Positions 2,445-35,475 of a stretch of 35,475 nt of DNA are shown here, in pieces. The notes below the pieces were generated by a model that searched no databases, was not told the DNA's origin, and saw nothing but the letters and a program-made list of their open reading frames with translations. Position numbers and translations under genes: made by a program. Position 1 is the first letter of the stretch, and every line of letters starts with the position of its first letter. The stretch is from the IMG/VR virus record IMGVR_UViG_3300048026_000960, positions 1-35,475 of that record; one strand, written 5' to 3'. Origin of the DNA: a virus.

Positions 2445-2987
2445 ATGCAGATATTAAACGAAGGCGGCAAGCTTGCCCGAAAAGCCAGAGAGACTGGCCT
2501 GGACGAAGTTGCTGACGCTATTATCTCTGTCTCTCCCATCGGAGGTTATTGGAACATTGCCAAAAAGATCGGTCGAGCGTTGGGGCTTGGCGACAACGCA
2601 AGCGAAACAGCCATTGCCGACGCGCTAGAAGATGCGACGCCAGAGCAAAGGGCGCAGATCGCAGAGATAGCATTGCAAGAGCAGCAGGCAATACTGGCAG
2701 ACTATCAACAGGACCGGGAGCAGGTCACCGCTCGACACGCTGCCGATATGATGGGTGATTGCAAGCTTTCAAAAACATGGAGACCGATTGTCGGGTATAT
2801 TGTGATCAGCTGTTTCTTAATTGACTGGATTCTTTGCCTTATACTTTTCGCAGCAGGCAAACCATCGCAACCAAGCGAATTACTGGCGACGCTCGCCACA
2901 ACAGTCGTCGGTTTCTACTACGGATCTCGAGGACTCCAACACATTGCGTCAAAATTCGCTTCGAAGTGGCCAGGTAAAGTCAGGTAA
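2445..2987 (+). CDS. Holin of the three-TM gene-transfer-agent type
   Basis: A 180-aa protein matching the layout of the GTA_holin_3TM family (PF11351). It has a soluble helical N-terminal half with a coiled-coil-like segment (residues 60-110). An S-K-T-W-R-P motif (about residue 115) follows, then membrane segments at about 120-140 and 147-162. It starts one base after the preceding stop with a good AGGAGA ribosome-binding site, and its stop overlaps the lysin start (TAATG). Holins of this family are proposed to make the inner-membrane lesion that lets the lysin reach the cell wall. The family call rests on pattern recognition. The adjacent lysin and a second holin-like gene support a lysis role. 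Confidence 0.72.
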   Translation: MQILNEGGKLARKARETGLDEVADAIISVSPIGGYWNIAKKIGRALGLGDNASETAIADALEDATPEQRAQIAEIALQEQQAILADYQQDREQVTARHAADMMGDCKLSKTWRPIVGYIVISCFLIDWILCLILFAAGKPSQPSELLATLATTVVGFYYGSRGLQHIASKFASKWPGKVR

Positions 2988-4384
2988 TGGTTTTTCTCCT
3001 TACATTGCTACGGTTAATTGTGCGCGAGCTATTCGGCAGGAATAGGACGATCCACCGCGCACCGCTACCTGACCCTGCACCGACTCCCAGCGATCCACCA
3101 GAGCCGCCGGAAGCTCCCGCCATAGTCAAACCACCGTCGATGGATTTCGGCGCAGCTACGGACGTTGCAAGGGCCGTGCTAGGCAAAGGATATGATGTTT
3201 TCGCGAACAACTCAGAGCCATACAATCTCAACATCGTAGGCATCAGGGACGCATCTCCAGAGTTTGACCGATTCGGATGTCGATTGGTGCAATTCTGGAA
3301 ACAGGAGGATGGAGAGTGGCATGTTATCTCTGTTCCGTTTACGACTTACCCGGGCGAGAGATATACTAGGCGCAAACTGCTCAACCCACGCGGCGCAATG
3401 ATATTAAAGCCGGGGCAATACAGAAACATCTACCGACTCCGAAAGCATCGAGGACTCTACAATGCACTTTGTCAAGATGGTGGTCCGGTGAATGTCTACC
3501 GCGACGGAAACAGAGATAGAGTCTACGATCTCAAACCAAACACGCTACAGAGTGGCAATTTTGGCGCAAATATTCATGCTCCAGAGAATCCAGACGACGG
3601 CATTTGCCGCGACATTTACGACAAGATCGGTGCATCGTCGGCAGGATGCCAGGTAACAAAGAGCGTTCGCGACTTCCTGCGACTGCGGGACGAGTGGGAA
3701 AAGGCCAATCAGATTTGGGGCAATGTTTTTACTTATACGCTGATTGAGGACACCGACCTGATTGATTCCAGTTCTGAGCAGGTAAATATTGCAGATGTTA
3801 CCGCCGAAACGCCTAGCAACTATGCAGCAGGCAGAGTCATCGTCGATCTCGAGGCGCGAAGAGACGCAGACCGAACGCTAAAAATTTACAAACTGCCAGA
3901 AAATGACGGTGGAGGAAAATACGAGATTGCAGGGATCAATGACCGATACCACCCAGAAGCACTTGCTGACCTGCGAGCGATGCAACCCGATCAACGGGAA
4001 ACATACGCGGCCAGATACATCGAGGAATATACGCTGCGATATACAAAGCTCGACGAGGTAAAGCTCAAGCCTGGCACTAAATTCTTCGTTCTAGATACGA
4101 CTTTCAATCGAGGCCCAGGCGGAAGTGCGTGGATTGTTCAGGATGCGCTTCGGGCAATGGGGCGCAATGTAAGGAGAGACGGGAAATGGGGACCACAAAC
4201 TCGCGGAATGCTTAAAAAGGCAGACCGAGAAACGCCTTCCCTATTGCTACAAAAGCTACGAGACTCGCGAGAGAGATACGAGCGCGAGAGAGTAGGGTAT
4301 AGATCGAATTTTTGGAAGGGACTTGTAAACAGGTGGAATAAAGTTCACGAAATCGCGGAGGAAATGAACAGTAACCTTTTATGA
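2987..4384 (+). CDS. Two-domain endolysin: YkuD-like N-terminal domain plus GH108/PG_binding_3 muramidase-like C-terminal domain
   Basis: A 465-aa protein. Residues 3-15 are hydrophobic (FLLTLLRLIVREL), like a signal-arrest-release or anchor segment, followed by a proline-rich linker (28-50). Residues 80-235 contain H197 in FGANIH and C221 in SSAGCQV, resembling the His...Ser-x-Gly-Cys active site of YkuD-type L,D-transpeptidases. That assignment is inference. Residues 285-465 fit the GH108 lysozyme plus PG_binding_3 layout: NDGGGKYEIAGI, then FVLDTTFNRGPG, DGKWGPQTRG and a final WKGLVNRWNKV. The canonical catalytic Glu of the EGGY motif is not obvious; E289 or E305 are candidates. The gene overlaps the upstream holin by 1 base and the downstream holin by 4, forming a lysis cassette. 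Confidence 0.8.
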   Translation: MVFLLTLLRLIVRELFGRNRTIHRAPLPDPAPTPSDPPEPPEAPAIVKPPSMDFGAATDVARAVLGKGYDVFANNSEPYNLNIVGIRDASPEFDRFGCRLVQFWKQEDGEWHVISVPFTTYPGERYTRRKLLNPRGAMILKPGQYRNIYRLRKHRGLYNALCQDGGPVNVYRDGNRDRVYDLKPNTLQSGNFGANIHAPENPDDGICRDIYDKIGASSAGCQVTKSVRDFLRLRDEWEKANQIWGNVFTYTLIEDTDLIDSSSEQVNIADVTAETPSNYAAGRVIVDLEARRDADRTLKIYKLPENDGGGKYEIAGINDRYHPEALADLRAMQPDQRETYAARYIEEYTLRYTKLDEVKLKPGTKFFVLDTTFNRGPGGSAWIVQDALRAMGRNVRRDGKWGPQTRGMLKKADRETPSLLLQKLRDSRERYERERVGYRSNFWKGLVNRWNKVHEIAEEMNSNLL

Positions 4385-4743
4385 ACATACTACATCAAAT
4401 CATTGCAGCAGCGAAATCAATTGCTACGCTACCGGCCTCGGAATTTACCATTTCCGGCTATATCAAATACTTTGCGGCAATCATCGCTATTTCCTCACTT
4501 GGAAGCGTTGCCAAAATGCTTGGCGATCATACCGAGAAAGTAACCAAGCGAGTCGTTTTGACTTATTTGATTACCGGAACCACTGCCGGACTTATACTTT
4601 CACTTTTGACCATTGATAAATACGGCGGCTCTTTCTTGCTTGTCGGTATATCCGGCGTTGCTGGTTTTGGATCGGTCCAGATTCTCTCGGTTCTTTCCTA
4701 CGGATTTCAATCAGTCATTAAAAAGTTTTTCGGAACAAAATAA
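4381..4743 (+). CDS. LydA-like holin
   Basis: A 120-aa very hydrophobic protein with three or four predicted membrane segments (about residues 27-47, 58-77, 82-106) and a charged KKFFGTK C-terminus. The GGSFLLVGISGVAGFGSVQ stretch resembles LydA/holin superfamily III proteins. The start overlaps the lysin stop (ATGA). It is the second holin-like gene around the lysin; one may be the holin and the other an antiholin, or they may act in different steps. Family assignment is moderate, membrane location is clear. Confidence 0.68.
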   Translation: MNILHQIIAAAKSIATLPASEFTISGYIKYFAAIIAISSLGSVAKMLGDHTEKVTKRVVLTYLITGTTAGLILSLLTIDKYGGSFLLVGISGVAGFGSVQILSVLSYGFQSVIKKFFGTK

Positions 4744-7233: not shown

Positions 7234-7704
7234 TTAGTTTATTGTTAGGGCATATTCAACCCCTTTTGCATTTGGAAATTGCTCGATAGACGGCAGCTTA
7301 CCTCCGATGACGTGTATCTCTCTCGATGCCGATTCTGTCAGTGTTATTTGAAAATCACTCTCGCCGTTCAATTCTTTTATCTCTCTGGCTAAAAAATTCC
7401 GATCCGAACGCTTTACTTGCGAAATGTTCAATATTGGTCTGCCAATGATTTCGCTGAGTAAATACCAGGACATCGTAATTTGAGGCTTTACGTCCGGCAA
7501 ATCTAGATGCGGCTCTTCAACCTCCGCGTAAGCATTAACCCGTCTCTGTAATAGTTTTTTATCCTTATTTGTGATTTGGTCGAACGACTTCAAATCGGAC
7601 CTGTTCAAAAGCAACTTGCAACTGCGTAAACTCAGCCGAAGAAAATCAGGCTCCTTTTTGGAGCTTTTTCGATGGAAGATCGAAAGGTTTCTATTGGGGT
7701 GCAT
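7234..7704 (-). CDS. Hypothetical protein in the recombination module
   Basis: A 156-aa protein with a very basic N-terminal third (MHPNRNLSIFHRKSSKKEPD) and a mixed alpha/beta remainder (residues 75-156). No recognised domain. Its start lies 14 bases inside the exonuclease gene and it ends 11 bases before the SSB-like gene. By position it could assist the exonuclease/SSB pair (the annealing-protein slot of RecE/RecT-like operons), but the sequence does not show RecT or Erf motifs. Confidence 0.68.
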   Translation of the reverse strand: MHPNRNLSIFHRKSSKKEPDFLRLSLRSCKLLLNRSDLKSFDQITNKDKKLLQRRVNAYAEVEEPHLDLPDVKPQITMSWYLLSEIIGRPILNISQVKRSDRNFLAREIKELNGESDFQITLTESASREIHVIGGKLPSIEQFPNAKGVEYALTIN

Positions 7705-8542
7705 TTGTGAAACCTGTCATCTCCTCCTCATCCTGCGCGTCAGCCCATCCCGGGCGACCTATCACGGCGACTTTGTCATTGAAAATATTGCCCCAAGACT
7801 CGGTTTTCGCGGCGTAAGTCAATCGGTCAAGTTGGTGGGCGCACCAATCCTCGCCAGCTGCTATGTCCATCGCTGGCAACTCAGTTACGGCTACCTCGTA
7901 GGGCGACTCGCTGGATTGCCAAACAAATCGAAACCGACTGCGTTGGTCGTCTGGATTCTCATTGTTCCAGATTTTGAGATACCACGCTGCTTGTGCGTGG
8001 TATCCGAATTGCGCGATTTTTTTACTGATACCGACCGGCGAAAAGTCTCCGGTCGTTTTAATGTCTACCAAGTAGTCGCGATTTTCTGGAACCAGATCAA
8101 TCATGCACTTTACGTTCACGTCTTTGATCTTAGAAGTGAGAATCACCTGCCCTTCTGAGCAGTCCAGCAAATCTGCCGCGTTTCGATCCAATCGGATTTT
8201 GTTTGCAGCAATCTTGGCCTGGTCTACCTCAGACTGCTTTACGACGACCAATCCTGACTCAGCCTGCTCATCTCGCCATTCCCGGGCATCTTTCGACCGG
8301 AACGAGTCAAACGGAGAAACCGCGACGATTGATTCACAGCCTCCCGGCTCAGTTAGTTCTGCGTCGACCATACTGCCCCAGCTCGCTGCTGGCGATCCGG
8401 TAAAAACCTTTGGAGCGAATCTCCATCGGTAAAGGCTGGATGATTTCAATTCCCACAATACAGATTTGGAAAGGTAGCTGTCGTCTGCGAAAATGTCCTC
8501 GCGATTGCATACTAGATTCTTGTGATATTCGTTTGGTGTCAT
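7691..8542 (-). CDS. RecE/DUF3799-type PD-(D/E)XK exonuclease
   Basis: A 283-aa protein of the exodeoxyribonuclease VIII-like family (PF12684). The N-terminus (YHKNLVCNREDIFADDSYLS, then S-S-S-L-Y-R-W) matches the usual YH...S.S.L family start. The catalytic signature is visible as CMIDLVPENRDYLVDIKTTG (about residues 145-165), supplying the Asp and D-x-K of the PD-(D/E)XK site. A family-typical FGYHAQAAWYLKIW helix follows. It resects double-stranded ends for recombination. It lies 8 bases after the HNH/AP2 gene and overlaps the next gene by 14 bases. Confidence 0.88.
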   Translation of the reverse strand: MTPNEYHKNLVCNREDIFADDSYLSKSVLWELKSSSLYRWRFAPKVFTGSPAASWGSMVDAELTEPGGCESIVAVSPFDSFRSKDAREWRDEQAESGLVVVKQSEVDQAKIAANKIRLDRNAADLLDCSEGQVILTSKIKDVNVKCMIDLVPENRDYLVDIKTTGDFSPVGISKKIAQFGYHAQAAWYLKIWNNENPDDQRSRFRFVWQSSESPYEVAVTELPAMDIAAGEDWCAHQLDRLTYAAKTESWGNIFNDKVAVIGRPGWADAQDEEEMTGFTNAPQ

Positions 8543-9044: not shown

Positions 9045-10118
9045 TTATTTACGCATCGGCATAATGATATATTTAAGGCCATCCGATTCGATCAACACAG
9101 GCGATTCGTACTCGCCAACTTTAATATCGACCGATTCCCCGTCGATGGTCGCGAGCATCTTCGCCAGGAAGTCGTGATTTACAGAAACGCCAAACTCGGG
9201 CGACTGGCATTCCAGTTTCTCCGACGCTGACTCTCCCGCGTTCGATGATGAAACGGTAATCCCATCAGCACTCCCGTCGAGCCGAACGCATCCGATCCGG
9301 GGATCGGCAATCAATCCGACTCGACGAAGAATGCCGAGGAGCTTTTTGTGCGGAGCGGGAAAAGTTCTCATTGCCGACTCATCCGGCATCACTCTGCGCC
9401 ACTCTGGAAATTTGCCTTCGATTGTTTTTGACCAGGTTCTTGCCGTGTCTGTCGCTACTCCTACAGAATTGTCTCCCAGAGCAATTTCAATATTGGCTTC
9501 GCCTTGACACGCATCGAGAATAGCGTCAGCGGCCAATGTAGGTATTATCACATTGAAGTCGTTCCAATCTGCCTCGAACGAATGCACGGCTAGCTGTCGC
9601 CCGTCAGTAGCGACTACACTAACCACGGAGTCGACACACTCCAGAAATACACCATTCAGAACATAGCGAGACTCATCGGCAGAAACGCAGCCGATCACGC
9701 TCTGTATCGCGTTCGATAGCTGATTGGCCTTAATGTCATACGCTCGATTGATCTCCATTGAGCGTTGCGGCCAATCAGCAACGTCAACTCCTTGCACCGA
9801 TGCTTTGAATCTTCCAGCCCGAATTTGGGTTTTTGATCCATCAGATTCAAGTTCCACAGTTTCGCCGTCGAGATTACTTATCACGGAATTCAATCTACGA
9901 AAGGGGACCAAAACCTCGCCATTCTCGCCAACATCAGCCGCAACCCCGATCGAGGTGTATTGGTCCAGATTGGTGGACTCAATGAAAAAACTATCGCCTG
10001 CGCTTAGAGCAGAGATTTTAACGTTCGACAAAACGGGGATATTGCCGTGAGAATTGCAAGTTTTCCCGGCTGCTTTTAAAGCAGCTGCCAGTTCTGATTT
10101 ATTTACTGTTATTTTCAT
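9045..10118 (-). CDS. dnaN: DNA polymerase III beta subunit (sliding clamp)
   Basis: A 357-aa protein close to the bacterial clamp length (about 366). It carries characteristic stretches in order: MKITVNKSELAAALKAAGK at the start, SRYVLNGVFLE, VVATDGRQLAVHSF, GKFPEWRRVMP, and a C-terminus YIIMPMRK that matches the clamp MPM-R end. Clamps encircle DNA and tether polymerase. An upstream in-frame extension is rejected because the ATG at 10118 has an AAAAGGA ribosome-binding sequence and overlaps the upstream stop as ATGA. No phage polymerase is seen in the window, so the clamp presumably works with host Pol III. Confidence 0.95.
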   Translation of the reverse strand: MKITVNKSELAAALKAAGKTCNSHGNIPVLSNVKISALSAGDSFFIESTNLDQYTSIGVAADVGENGEVLVPFRRLNSVISNLDGETVELESDGSKTQIRAGRFKASVQGVDVADWPQRSMEINRAYDIKANQLSNAIQSVIGCVSADESRYVLNGVFLECVDSVVSVVATDGRQLAVHSFEADWNDFNVIIPTLAADAILDACQGEANIEIALGDNSVGVATDTARTWSKTIEGKFPEWRRVMPDESAMRTFPAPHKKLLGILRRVGLIADPRIGCVRLDGSADGITVSSSNAGESASEKLECQSPEFGVSVNHDFLAKMLATIDGESVDIKVGEYESPVLIESDGLKYIIMPMRK

Positions 10119-10444
10119 AGTGTTTTTCCTTTTACTCGGATACAAGGCACGTTCTTCTTTCCAAACGCGTCGCAAGTTGAGCGGAATAGCGTGATTTTTT
10201 TACCAAGCCATTCATCCATTTCGTTGCCGTGATGTCGGCGGATGGTCCGGGCATTGGTTTTGTTCAAGACCATCTCCTTTTTCACGCCTTTAATTTTCAT
10301 TAGCGGGTTTTCAATCGGTCGCCCGTCCCGGCCCAAGTCTTTGCGCGTTCCTATACGAACACTTTCGATCTCCACCTCAATTTCCTTGCCGTCTGGAATG
10401 TCCTCGGCCTCAAGAAAGCCGGAAAAAGCATCAGAGACTTTCAT
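10115..10444 (-). CDS. Conserved small phage protein, possibly nucleic-acid binding
   Basis: A 109-aa protein (MKVSDAFSGFLEAEDIPDGK...). It resembles small phage proteins often found beside recombination and replication genes, with beta-rich character and a basic C-terminal half (KKITLFRST, KNVPCIRVKGKTL). An OB-like fold is possible but not proven. It overlaps the clamp start by ATGA and the preceding gene by 14 bases, so it is co-translated with the clamp. Confidence 0.75.
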   Translation of the reverse strand: MKVSDAFSGFLEAEDIPDGKEIEVEIESVRIGTRKDLGRDGRPIENPLMKIKGVKKEMVLNKTNARTIRRHHGNEMDEWLGKKITLFRSTCDAFGKKNVPCIRVKGKTL

Positions 10445-22349: not shown

Positions 22350-24308
22350 ATGTGTTTTCTTTTTAAGGTGAAAACGCAGCAGAAACAGACATGGTATAAC
22401 CTTTCTCAAGAAGGTTCAGTAGCCGACATCTCTATTCACGACGAAATCGGGGGGTTCGGAGTATCGGGCAGTAGCTTCCTAGCAGAGATGCAGTCGATGG
22501 AAGGAGTAGACGAAATCAATCTATCTATACACTCTCCCGGCGGAGACGTGCTAGAAGGTTGGGCCATTTACAACGCTATCAAAAATTTCGAAGGCATCGT
22601 ATCCGCAAAGGTAGAAGGATTTGCTGGCAGCATGGCCTCGGTCATTCTGATGGCGGCAGACGAGATCATCATGCCATCCAACAGCTATTTGATGATCCAC
22701 AATCCTTACGTCGGACTTGTTGGCGATTCTCAGGCTCTTGGAGATGCCGCAGCTACGCTAGAGAAGATTCAAAACAGCATTGTATCAGTCTACGTCGAGC
22801 GGACCGGACTAACACGCGAGCAGGTCCAGGATTTGATGGATCGCGAGACTTTTATGGATGGCAGCGAGGCCGTTGATCTCGGTTTTGCGGATCGAGTCGA
22901 GGAGAGTTTCAAGGCCGCAGCTTTCAAGGATTCATGGGCGAACAGCATTACAAAAGATTTACCAAAAGGGTTGGTTTTCGGGGAAATTTCCGAACAGCCC
23001 GAAACAAAACCAACAAACCAACAAGAACAACTACCTCACAACATGAGCGAAGAAGTAAAGCCGGAAGCCCCGGCCATCAATATCAAGGACATCCGCGACG
23101 AGGAGCGTCACCGCATCGGAGAAATCTCCGCTATCGGGCAGCGTTTCAACGTCGACGACAAGGAAATCAACTCTGCAATCGACAGCGGCAAAGCTACTGA
23201 CGAGTTCCGCGCAGAGGTGATGAACAATTTCGACCCAAGCAAATTTGCAGCAGGCGGCTCCAATGAGTCTGTCTACGTAGGCGAAAAAGAGGTGCAGAGC
23301 TACTCTGTTCTTAAAGCAGTCAACGAGCATATCAACGGCGGATTGACCGGCCTGGAGCGCGAAGTTCAAGACGAACTCTCCCAGCGTTTCCGCGCAGCAT
23401 CCGGCGACACTCCAAAGGGCATTTTGATTCCCGGAGAAGTTTCTCACGGTGTCAAAAACGCAGCTACAGTCGGCACAACCACTTCTGGTGGCCACACAGT
23501 AGCAACGGAATTGCAGCCTGTCGTCGATTATTTCGAGGACTACTCGCTTCTTCCACAGCTCGGGGCAACGATCTTTCGCGATGCTACCGGCAACCTCAGT
23601 TTCCCTACCGCGACAAGCGGATATACGGGAGCATGGGACGCAGAAACCGACACGATTGCGAACGCAGATGCAGTATTCTCCAACTTCACAATGTCGCCAA
23701 AGCGAGTAGGTGCAGGAACTAGCGTTTCTCTCCAACTGCTCCAGCAGTCATCTGTTGATTTTGAGGGCTGGATTCGCTCCAAGCTCGGACAGGGCATCTC
23801 GATTGCCATCGACCGGGGAGCATTCACCGGAGCAGGTGGCGACGCCCCAACCGGCATCCTGAACGCATCTGGAACGACCGCTTACACTTGGCAGGTCGGT
23901 AACTCCGCTCACCAGAACGTAATTGACCAGTGGAAGGGACTCCGCGACGCGAAAGTTCCACTTACATCGGCCAAGTGGCTTTCTGAGCCAGGCGTTACCG
24001 CCGACTGGATGGCGACTCCAAAAGAGTCCGGCCAGGCCAACTACGTCATCGACGAGAATCCAAACGGAACTCAGCGCGCCCTTGGTTACGAGTATTACGA
24101 CCACACCGACATTACCGCCAACAAGGTAATCTTCGGAGAGTTCAGCTATCTACTCGTTTGCCTTTGGGGTGGAATCGACCTCGTTGTTGATCCATACAGC
24201 AGCAAGAACTCGGGAACGGTTGAACTGTTCGCGAACGCATTCGCTGACGCAGCACTCGAGCAGCCTTCCGCCTTCGTTATCGGAGACAACGGAACGACTC
24301 ACGCATAA
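22350..24308 (+). CDS. Fused ClpP-like prohead protease and HK97-type major capsid protein
   Basis: A single 652-aa frame. Residues 22-200 form an S14 ClpP-like protease: NLSIHSPGGDVLEGWAIYNA, S94 in GFAGSMAS, H117 in LMIHNPYVG, and the RETFMDGSEAVDLGFAD stretch. A Gln/Asn/Pro linker and a charged delta-like segment (about 232-300) follow, then an HK97-fold capsid protein (GLEREVQDELSQRF, ATELQPVVDYFEDYSLLPQL, TGILNASG, then the C-terminal domain). Protease and capsid are usually separate genes. M232 (ATG at 23043) begins a plausible capsid precursor and could be an internal start. The 5' start is uncertain: no ribosome-binding site is seen at 22350, and GTG 22368 is possible. Confidence 0.93.
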   Translation: MCFLFKVKTQQKQTWYNLSQEGSVADISIHDEIGGFGVSGSSFLAEMQSMEGVDEINLSIHSPGGDVLEGWAIYNAIKNFEGIVSAKVEGFAGSMASVILMAADEIIMPSNSYLMIHNPYVGLVGDSQALGDAAATLEKIQNSIVSVYVERTGLTREQVQDLMDRETFMDGSEAVDLGFADRVEESFKAAAFKDSWANSITKDLPKGLVFGEISEQPETKPTNQQEQLPHNMSEEVKPEAPAINIKDIRDEERHRIGEISAIGQRFNVDDKEINSAIDSGKATDEFRAEVMNNFDPSKFAAGGSNESVYVGEKEVQSYSVLKAVNEHINGGLTGLEREVQDELSQRFRAASGDTPKGILIPGEVSHGVKNAATVGTTTSGGHTVATELQPVVDYFEDYSLLPQLGATIFRDATGNLSFPTATSGYTGAWDAETDTIANADAVFSNFTMSPKRVGAGTSVSLQLLQQSSVDFEGWIRSKLGQGISIAIDRGAFTGAGGDAPTGILNASGTTAYTWQVGNSAHQNVIDQWKGLRDAKVPLTSAKWLSEPGVTADWMATPKESGQANYVIDENPNGTQRALGYEYYDHTDITANKVIFGEFSYLLVCLWGGIDLVVDPYSSKNSGTVELFANAFADAALEQPSAFVIGDNGTTHA

Positions 24309-32458: not shown

Positions 32459-35400
32459 AATATCTGTATCCATTGCTACGTCGCCAAGCATAGCCGTAAC
32501 GCTAGACGACGATGGCGTATCCGTTTCGGTGACGACCGGCAGCGTTTCCGTTCCTGTAAGCGTAACCGGCGTTAGCAGTGGCGGGGATATGGCTGCATCG
32601 GTCTATGACCCTACTTCTGTTGCTGGAGATGCCTTCGCAATGGATAATATGGTCGAAGGATCGACCACAAAAATTCTCACAGACGCGGAGCGCTCCAAGC
32701 TTTCAGGTATTGAATCGAACGCTACTGGTGACCAGACTGGTGCAGAGATAAAATCTCTTTACGAGTCAGAGTCTGACACAAACGCCTTTACAGACGCGGA
32801 GAAAACACTGCTTGGAAATCAGAGTGGTACGAACACAGGCGATCAGGATTTGTCTACCTATCAACTCCAGCCATCTGAAGGTGCATTTATCGACGGTGAC
32901 AAAACAAAGCTAGACGGGATAGAGTCGAACGCTACTGCTGACCAAGATGCCAGCGAGATTCGAAGCCTTGTTGATTCCGCTACAGACTCCAACGTATTTA
33001 CCGACGCAGACCACAGCAAGCTAGACGGTATTCAAGCCAATGCAGATGTGACCAATGCCCAGAATGTAGCAGATGCTGGCGCATTGATGGATAGCGAAGT
33101 GGCTAATCTGGACGATGTAAAGTCATTCGACCCTGCCGACTATGCGACAGCAGCGCAAGGGGCAACAGCGGACACAGCAATTCAGCCAAGTGACATTTCA
33201 GGTTTGACCGGAGGCACAACGGGGCAGATTGCTACCAAGGCAAGCGGCGACTATTACGATCTGACTTGGTCTGATGACCTCAACGTGCCGGGACTTTTAA
33301 CCGCTGACCACATACATGGTAGTATAGCAGGGACGCTTTATGTTCATGTCAAAAACACCAGCGGAGGAACGCTAACGAAAGGAACACCAGTATACGTCAC
33401 CGGACATGTGGGCGTGTCGGATCGAATCGAGGTAGCAGCAGCAGACCAATCTGATTCCGCCAAGATGCCAGCCGTCGCACTACTCGCGGATGATCTTGCG
33501 AACAACGCCGAGGGAGATGGTGTCATCGTGGGGGAAATTCGATCATTTGATACAGACACTCCGGGCTGGAGCCTCAATGATGAAATCTTTGTAGGCGCAA
33601 GCGGTCTGACATCGACGCGACCAACTAGCGGAACCGTGCAACCAGTTGCGACAGTAGGAAGAATACACGCATCGACCGGAGTTCTTGTGATCAACTGCCA
33701 AGGGCAAAGATCGCCCGATGAGACATTTGCAGAGGCAACGCACAGTCACACTCTTTCTGATATTACTGACGCGGGTACGGCGGCGGCGAGCGACACGGGG
33801 GATCTTGCAACTGCCGCTCAGGGGACTCTAGCTGATTCAGCTACACAGCCTGGCGATCTAGGAACTGCCGCAAGCCTTGACGTAGGCACATCGGCAAATG
33901 AGGTAGTCCAGCTAGACGGATCGTCTAGACTCCCCGCTGTAGATGGGTCGCAGCTAACTAATCTACCATCGGGAGCCACTCAGCTATCAGATTTGTCCGA
34001 TGTCAACACTAGCACGGCGACCAATCGCAACGCACTCATCGCTGACGGAACTGACTTTGAATCTCGCCAATTGGTTGAGGCTGATATATCCGATCTGGGC
34101 AATTACATTACCGACATTGCAGGTGAGTCGCTCTCCGACTTGTCCGACGTTACGACCACAGGGGCGCAACTTGATGCGATCAAAACGAAGGTAGACGGAA
34201 TAGAATCGGGTGCAGAAGTGAACGACCCGACCACATTGGTCGATTCTGACATTGGTGTAAATGTTCAAGCATATTCCTCTGCGCTCGATGCGGTCAGCGG
34301 GACCAATACAGGCGACCAAGATTTATCCTCCTATCAACTCAAACCGTCCGAGGGAGCTTTTGTAGACGGCGACAAAACAAAACTAGACGGTATTGAGTCG
34401 GGCGCAGATGTGACTGACACGACAAACGTGGTTTTATCGTTAACTGCTGGAACCAATATCACAATAGCAGGCGACGGAACCATCTCTTCTACTGGAACAG
34501 GACTTTCCGACGAAGAAGTTCAGGACATTGTTGGGGGAATGGTTACGGGAAATACCGAAAGCGGTATAACCGTTGACTATGACGATACAGGCGGGAAACT
34601 TGACTTTACTGTGGCATCGCAGACTGACGAGAACTTCACAACAGCAGATCACGCAAAGCTGGACGGCATTGAGGCCGGGGCAGATGTTACCGATACCGCG
34701 AACGTCACATCAGCGGGGGCATTGATGGATTCAGAAGTATCTAATCTGGATCAAGTCAAAGCTTTTGATTCAAGCGATTATGCAACTTTCGCGCAGGGAT
34801 CAGCAGCGGACTCTGCACTGCAAGCCGGTGATAATATATCTACACTCACCAATGACTCTGGTTTCACGGGCGACCAGACTGCTGCCGACATCAGGTCTTT
34901 GGGATTCTTCGACACTTCAAATGACGGCGCAGCATCGGGGCTTGATGCAGATTTACTAGACGGAAACCACGCGAGCGCATTTGCTACGGCGTCGCAGGGA
35001 TCGCTTGCCGATTCCGCGGTCCAGCCTGGAGACAACCTAGACGTGCTGGGAGGCGTTACCATCACAGCTCCAGCTAATGCGGGTCAATACCTGCGATACG
35101 ATGGCGTTAGCGAGTTTCGTAACTCTGCGATTGGAGCCTCCGATCTTCCCGACCTATCCAGCACCTATGCGACAGCCGCGCAGGGAACAGCAGCGGACTC
35201 CGCACTGCAATCCGGCGACATTGATACACTCGCTGAATTGAACTCTGTCGTAACGGACGCAACGCTGATTGATACGGCAGACAGCAGACTTTCCGACAGC
35301 AGAACTTGCGATAATACTTTTGACAATGCTGCGACAGCAAGAACAAATTTAGGACTCGGAACGGCGGCTATAGAGTCTGCTGCTTCACTTTCACCCACTG

Positions 35401-35475
35401 GAGGTGTCCAAGCATATGCTGGAAGTTCTTCGCCTACGGGCTGGCTTATTTGCGATGGTAGTGCTGTTTCTCGGA
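32451..35475 (+). CDS. Tail fibre protein (N-terminal and repeat region; ends at 540 across the junction)
   Basis: The frame has no stop from ATG 32451 to the window end and continues at base 1 to 540; subtracting the 136-base overlap gives 1142 aa. The first 45 residues are a beta-rich head (MTEISVSIATSPSIAVTLDD). The body is built of fibre repeats: several copies of F-x-D-A-D-H-x-K-L-D-G-I-E-(S/A)-x-A-D, and of D-Y-A-T-x-A-Q-G-x-x-A-D-x-A-x-Q. A globular stretch near residues 290-410 (LYVHVKNTSGGTLTKGTPVY) interrupts them, and the collar domain is C-terminal. This is the main host-recognition candidate. Confidence 0.92.
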   Translation, partial: MTEISVSIATSPSIAVTLDDDGVSVSVTTGSVSVPVSVTGVSSGGDMAASVYDPTSVAGDAFAMDNMVEGSTTKILTDAERSKLSGIESNATGDQTGAEIKSLYESESDTNAFTDAEKTLLGNQSGTNTGDQDLSTYQLQPSEGAFIDGDKTKLDGIESNATADQDASEIRSLVDSATDSNVFTDADHSKLDGIQANADVTNAQNVADAGALMDSEVANLDDVKSFDPADYATAAQGATADTAIQPSDISGLTGGTTGQIATKASGDYYDLTWSDDLNVPGLLTADHIHGSIAGTLYVHVKNTSGGTLTKGTPVYVTGHVGVSDRIEVAAADQSDSAKMPAVALLADDLANNAEGDGVIVGEIRSFDTDTPGWSLNDEIFVGASGLTSTRPTSGTVQPVATVGRIHASTGVLVINCQGQRSPDETFAEATHSHTLSDITDAGTAAASDTGDLATAAQGTLADSATQPGDLGTAASLDVGTSANEVVQLDGSSRLPAVDGSQLTNLPSGATQLSDLSDVNTSTATNRNALIADGTDFESRQLVEADISDLGNYITDIAGESLSDLSDVTTTGAQLDAIKTKVDGIESGAEVNDPTTLVDSDIGVNVQAYSSALDAVSGTNTGDQDLSSYQLKPSEGAFVDGDKTKLDGIESGADVTDTTNVVLSLTAGTNITIAGDGTISSTGTGLSDEEVQDIVGGMVTGNTESGITVDYDDTGGKLDFTVASQTDENFTTADHAKLDGIEAGADVTDTANVTSAGALMDSEVSNLDQVKAFDSSDYATFAQGSAADSALQAGDNISTLTNDSGFTGDQTAADIRSLGFFDTSNDGAASGLDADLLDGNHASAFATASQGSLADSAVQPGDNLDVLGGVTITAPANAGQYLRYDGVSEFRNSAIGASDLPDLSSTYATAAQGTAADSALQSGDIDTLAELNSVVTDATLIDTADSRLSDSRTCDNTFDNAATARTNLGLGTAAIESAASLSPTGGVQAYAGSSSPTGWLICDGSAVSR
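32832..32920. repeat. Imperfect 89-base direct repeat, copy 1 (tail fibre)
   Basis: This segment, beginning AACACAGGCGATCAGG and ending near the KLDGI codons, matches 34305-34393 imperfectly; many differences are synonymous. Both encode N-T-G-D-Q-D-L-S-(T/S)-Y-Q-L and then GDKTKLDGIES. It reflects internal duplication of a fibre segment. Confidence 0.8.
34305..34393. repeat. Imperfect 89-base direct repeat, copy 2 (tail fibre)
   Basis: Second copy of the 32832-32920 segment (begins AATACAGGCGACCAAG). The amino-acid pattern is better conserved than the bases, indicating an old duplication under selection. Confidence 0.8.
35340..35475. repeat. Terminal overlap copy (right)
   Basis: Same 136 bases as 1-136, differing only at 35459 (T for C). 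It joins the two ends of the map within the fibre gene. Confidence 0.93.

Follow-up and report, generated by a model that had tools for sequence, protein, structure and literature searches.

The question raised by this locus is whether a single phage gene joins two different cell-wall enzymes and, if so, to which family the first of them belongs. A preliminary description had proposed a lysin with a YkuD-like N-terminal active site and a GH108-like C-terminal muramidase, tethered until release. The DNA analysed, termed here the window, is the whole viral stretch of 35,475 bases, which encodes terminase, portal, protease/major head, head-tail and tape-measure proteins. Positions 2987-4384 of the plus strand form an open reading frame of 465 aa, arranged with its neighbours as follows.

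2445-2987, plus strand: holin of the GTA_holin_3TM / phrog_3427 type (PF11351 E 1.7e-6; phrog_3427 E 8.6e-13)
2987-4384, plus strand: lysin, 465 aa, with hydrophobic segment, Pro-rich linker, phrog_3000 His/Cys domain and GH108/PG_binding_3-type muramidase
4381-4743, plus strand: small membrane protein, possible second holin (phrog_6384 holin E 0.0046; Phage_holin_3_3 under its cut-off at E 0.007)

The stop codon of the holin gene overlaps the ATG of the lysin gene. Since the holin stands directly upstream and a weakly holin-like small protein directly downstream, and since the same neighbours accompany the full-length lysin relatives in two other viral contigs (93% and 92% identity), the region is a lysis-gene setting. 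Given the upstream gene for a GTA_holin_3TM-type holin, the product of 2987-4384 is very probably an endolysin. It should be added that a promoter and terminator scan returned matches no more than chance. On the sequence evidence set out below, we consider it probable that this tailed-phage endolysin is bifunctional, combining a muramidase with a cysteine-dependent stem-peptide enzyme.

The muramidase part of the proposal was assessed from the following features of the C-terminal half.

3815-4381, plus strand: GH108-type muramidase domain with its PG_binding_3 half, residues 277-465 (AF2, Foldseek, hhalign)
4133-4282, plus strand: Pfam match to PG_binding_3, residues 383-432 (E 8.4e-6, over cut-off)
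3851-3853, plus strand: codon of E289, aligning with the GH108 catalytic Glu ('EGG'), invariant in 18 relatives
3923-3925, plus strand: codon of E313, likewise invariant, close to where the GH108 triad has its Thr

The AF2 model of this domain, made with an alignment of 18 sequences, had a pLDDT of 91.8. Its best PDB matches in Foldseek were the GH108-type muramidases NMB1012 (E 5e-5), Brucella SagA (E 8e-5, TMt 0.72), Sen1395 and TtsA, all with probability 1.00 and E from 5e-5 to 2e-2. Comparison with GH108 proteins in hhalign gave 98.6-99.1%, and PF09374 (PG_binding_3) scored 26.3 bits in the lysin versus a cut-off of 24.6 and was matched in 18/18 relatives (E up to 1). We are confident, from the model, that the C-terminal part has a GH108-type muramidase fold with a PG_binding_3 half, as had been proposed. 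The Pfam GH108 model (PF05838) was not over cut-off in the domain and matched one of the 18 relatives, at E 0.16 only.

With the GH108/PG_binding_3 muramidases (NMB1012, Brucella SagA, Sen1395, TtsA and N4-like endolysins) the lysin has in common the fold, the PG_binding_3 half, the position of the catalytic Glu and the DxGG motif. It differs from them in reading E-A-R for 'EGG', with an insertion thereafter, in its triad Thr position and in escaping detection by the Pfam GH108 model. The earlier doubt about the catalytic Glu was mistaken: E289 is invariant in the 18-sequence alignment and aligned with the Glu of 'EGG', so the residue is in place. E305, formerly named as a candidate, is not conserved; E313 is. 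The catalytic triad of TtsA is E14/D19/T28 (PMC6996933). In the hhalign alignment with GH108 proteins, the position of the triad Thr is held in the lysin by Y312 or E313. A covalent intermediate is trapped in T4 lysozyme when Thr26 is replaced by Glu (T26E), and, with an invariant E313 near the triad Thr position, the mechanism in this muramidase subfamily may therefore differ. Because the triad beyond the Glu is altered, muramidase activity is a prediction from sequence. A plain single-domain GH108 lysin was rejected as a description of 2987-4384.

At the opposite end of the protein, two features mentioned in the preliminary description were recovered.

2990-3034, plus strand: hydrophobic/amphipathic segment, residues 2-16, VFLLTLLRLIVRELF (KD mean 1.87 over 15 residues, hydrophobic moment 0.40-0.55)
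3053-3139, plus strand: Pro-rich linker, residues 23-51, 41% Pro

Residues 2-16 were the best 15-mer; over 19 residues, the mean KD is only 1.14, and R9, R13 and E14 lie inside the 15-residue stretch. With their shortness, charges and amphipathic character, residues 1-18 resemble neither an SAR nor a full transmembrane helix, and a SAR endolysin was rejected on these grounds. The tethering of the enzyme until release is likewise unsupported, and the segment may, judging from its composition, touch the membrane.

Between the linker and the muramidase lies the domain on which the two-enzyme reading depends.

3140-3766, plus strand: phrog_3000 domain, putative cysteine-dependent peptidoglycan peptide enzyme, residues ~52-260 (phrog_3000 E 2.8e-17)
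3446-3448, plus strand: codon of H154, invariant (100% in 79 sequences)
3575-3577, plus strand: codon of H197, invariant, putative catalytic His, in FGANIH
3647-3649, plus strand: codon of C221, in S-A-G-C-Q-V, invariant, putative nucleophile

The FGANIH (H197) and SSAGC (C221) motifs of the preliminary description are present. In a 79-sequence alignment of the N-terminal domain (N-domain), whose members are ~36-43% identical to the query, H154, R172, D173, H197, S218, A219, G220, C221, Q222 and V223 were conserved in 100%. Invariance in 79 divergent sequences places these motifs beyond chance, and, since the patterns used to find the loci contained neither the H197 nor the Cys motif, it does not come from selection bias. 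The distance from His to Cys is usually 15-19 residues, and 23 in the window lysin; variants of the Cys motif in two annotated phages are SLGC (SJC03) and SAGCVV (DAC16).

Among annotated phages, phrog_3000 members are stand-alone proteins of ~205 aa, nearly all labelled hypothetical, carried by crAss-like phages, Bacteroides phages DAC16 and SJC03 and a P2-like Pseudoalteromonas phage. The phrog_3000 members, crAss-like phage proteins such as crAss002 gp5 included, share the domain with the lysin (E 2.8e-17, 35-39% identity) and have the same invariant residues, whereas the lysin adds to it a muramidase and, at the N-terminus, an anchor-like segment. In IMG/VR, 544/600 candidate stretches encode relatives, nearly all as proteins of ~200 aa. 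GTDB genomes yielded 336 relatives, mostly from Bacteroidota among the matches listed, the closest of those being a Verrucomicrobiia sequence (54%). No Pfam or NCBIfam model matches the N-domain of the window lysin, and the open-literature search found no named function for the phrog_3000 family; a BFVD structure search matched a protein named 'Lysin' (E 1.3e-15).

Whether the N-domain belongs to YkuD, as the preliminary description suggested, has to be weighed against the reading that it is a peptidoglycan cysteine enzyme with a fold of its own, in which the H...SxGC arrangement arose by convergence. In favour of such a separate fold, the AF2 model of the N-domain (pLDDT 94.4) gave no significant match in Foldseek against PDB. 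Profile comparison in hhalign (0.7% with YkuD and 0.1% with YkuD_2) was no better than with an unrelated control (0.5%), YkuD versus YkuD_2 reaching 39%. The YkuD active-site pattern is H-x(14-17)-[S/T]-H-G-C; in the N-domain, the second His, that of SHGC, is replaced by Ala; S-x-G-C is invariant and the spacing is usually H-x(15-19)-C. PF03734 and PF13645 matched neither the window lysin nor any of 44 aligned N-domain members, and the sole NCBIfam L,D-transpeptidase match was to one member, at E 0.046. Searches of PDB sequences, by phmmer with the whole protein and by hmmsearch with the N-domain profile, returned chance matches only for the N-domain. No characterised peptidase matched it significantly, whether by sequence or by fold.

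On the other side, an L,D-transpeptidase (4z7a) appears among the weak Foldseek matches (rank 14, E 0.46, TM 0.22). The best local profile alignment with YkuD, although scoring at control level, places SAGC on SHGC, and in YkuD_2, too, the His of that motif can give way to other residues. Moreover, the modelled order of short strand (IH), loop, SxGC, strand, helix and strand is the one expected of YkuD. We regard a separate, convergent fold as unlikely. Motif and local topology alone agree with YkuD, and no Foldseek or profile match is significant, so that membership in YkuD is unproven; it is likely, from the sequence features, that the domain is a cysteine enzyme acting in the manner of L,D-transpeptidases. 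The His/Cys domain that had been described is hence retained, with its assignment to YkuD unproven. Tlde1 effectors and YkuD L,D-transpeptidases have in common with the N-domain the order of His then S-x-G-Cys at similar spacing; the N-domain differs from both in lacking the His of SHGC and any significant sequence or fold match.

Further evidence on the role of the domain came from its fusions. Relatives of the N-domain are fused to PG_binding_1 in three loci (L167, L186 and L090; E 6e-16, 1e-12 and 1e-14) and to Amidase_2 in another (L192, E 2e-21). In the 642-kb uncultured phage LR756502, phrog_3000 stands at the C-terminal end of a Phage_base_V OB protein (L014:2038-3580, E 1e-5), and a second copy lies at 139775-140206; the baseplate OB fusion suggests a role at the virion tip. 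Only the window and its two near relatives, three closely related phages in all, showed the fusion of phrog_3000 with the GH108-type domain. Small membrane proteins adjoined 19/67 stand-alone N-domain genes (28%) versus 60/335 (18%), a weak enrichment (p = 0.06), and recognisable holins or spanins adjoin such genes in a minority of loci only, with few clear cases.

Exchange of the partner module was seen around the muramidase as well. A sibling lysin (L101), whose locus is syntenic (65% for the upstream gene, 41% for a holin match, 35% for the downstream phosphoesterase), resembles the window lysin at its N-terminus and likewise has a Pro-rich linker and, at 60% identity, a GH108-type domain; it has no match to the phrog_3000 N-domain and carries a C-terminal Peptidase_M15_4 (E 2e-13). 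On a plasmid of Microvirga sp. VF16 (L295:2776-4362), the same GH108-type domain is fused to a papain-like C1 peptidase, in a gene which adjoins one annotated as a peptidoglycan recognition family protein. In Microbulbifer sediminum, a protein of 437 aa (L294:10794-12104) combines GH108 (2e-23), PG_binding_3 and YkuD_2 (8e-46). Like the lysin, it contains both a GH108 muramidase and a His/Cys domain of the L,D-transpeptidase type; it differs in its reversed domain order, its genuine YkuD_2 and its bacterial genome. It should also be added that this genome encodes a PG_binding_1 and phrog_3000 protein (L196). These three cases (M15, papain-like and YkuD_2) indicate that the GH108-type muramidase is repeatedly paired with a peptidase-type domain, a role which the phrog_3000 domain appears to fill here. 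A gut-phage endolysin composed of GH25, choline-binding repeats and YkuD shares the two-enzyme concept of muramidase plus YkuD, and differs in its muramidase family and in the thirteen choline-binding repeats in between (PMC13284279).

A second alternative takes the N-domain for a true YkuD fold that leaves cross-links uncut, trims or exchanges the ends of stem peptides and modifies or weakens new wall, with lysis left to the muramidase. There is precedent in Tlde1a, whose modified L,D-transpeptidase fold acts as a carboxypeptidase and exchanges D-amino acids (PMC9638812), and YkuD-family enzymes act as L,D-transpeptidase, carboxypeptidase or endopeptidase (PMC12729407). The non-significant YkuD kinship of the N-domain and the pairing, in the sibling lysin, of the same muramidase with a hydrolytic M15-type peptidase make this decidedly improbable. 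That the N-domain binds peptidoglycan without any catalysis, as its place beside another catalytic module such as Amidase_2 (L192) might allow, is very improbable indeed, for residues that stay invariant across divergent sequences (Cys, Arg, Asp and two His) are typical of an active site, and most relatives are single-domain stand-alone proteins, some already having their own PG_binding_1.

In the bifunctional endolysin that we favour, the upstream holin would open the inner membrane first. The C-terminal GH108-type domain would then cut the glycan strand with E289 as acid, and the phrog_3000 domain would act on a bond in the stem peptides via Cys221 and His197, with H154 and R172/D173 assisting and a chemistry akin to that of L,D-transpeptidase, carboxypeptidase or endopeptidase enzymes. 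The Pro-rich linker would part this catalytic portion from the short amphipathic, possibly membrane-touching N-terminus. Such a domain arrangement agrees with that of a multicatalytic endolysin. The two-part lysin first proposed is in this form retained, with a GH108-type muramidase, a probable stem-peptide His/Cys domain, a holin upstream and M15 in the sibling behind it, apart from membership in YkuD.

Two-enzyme lysins are already known, so that the architecture alone is a variant; the interesting part is the uncharacterised and widespread His/Cys N-domain. It is abundant (the matches checked included >540 relatives from viruses and >330 from genomes) and figures as hypothetical in crAss-like and other Bacteroides phages. 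Its fusions to muramidase, amidase, PG-binding and baseplate modules are a direct reason to view it as a cell-wall enzyme candidate and, if active, it would provide many phages of gut Bacteroidota with a lysin candidate open to testing. It is conceivable, though less likely than not, that phrog_3000 is a hitherto unnamed cysteine hydrolase of peptidoglycan, new at clan level (or else a highly altered L,D-transpeptidase), serving as the stand-alone lysin of many Bacteroidota phages, crAss-like ones included, and recruited here into a two-enzyme endolysin.

Elsewhere in the window, ~3 kb at 32459-35475 contain short ORFs only, mostly on the minus strand. A phage DNA polymerase III beta clamp with all three Pfam domains is encoded at 9045-10175 (minus strand) and adjoins a DUF3799/exonuclease VIII-type gene at 7691-8542 (minus strand). 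In a single frame, a 652-aa ORF at 22350-24308 (plus strand) encodes a ClpP-like head maturation protease (phrog_133/94) and, after it, a major head protein (phrog_617), and is thus a protease-capsid fusion.
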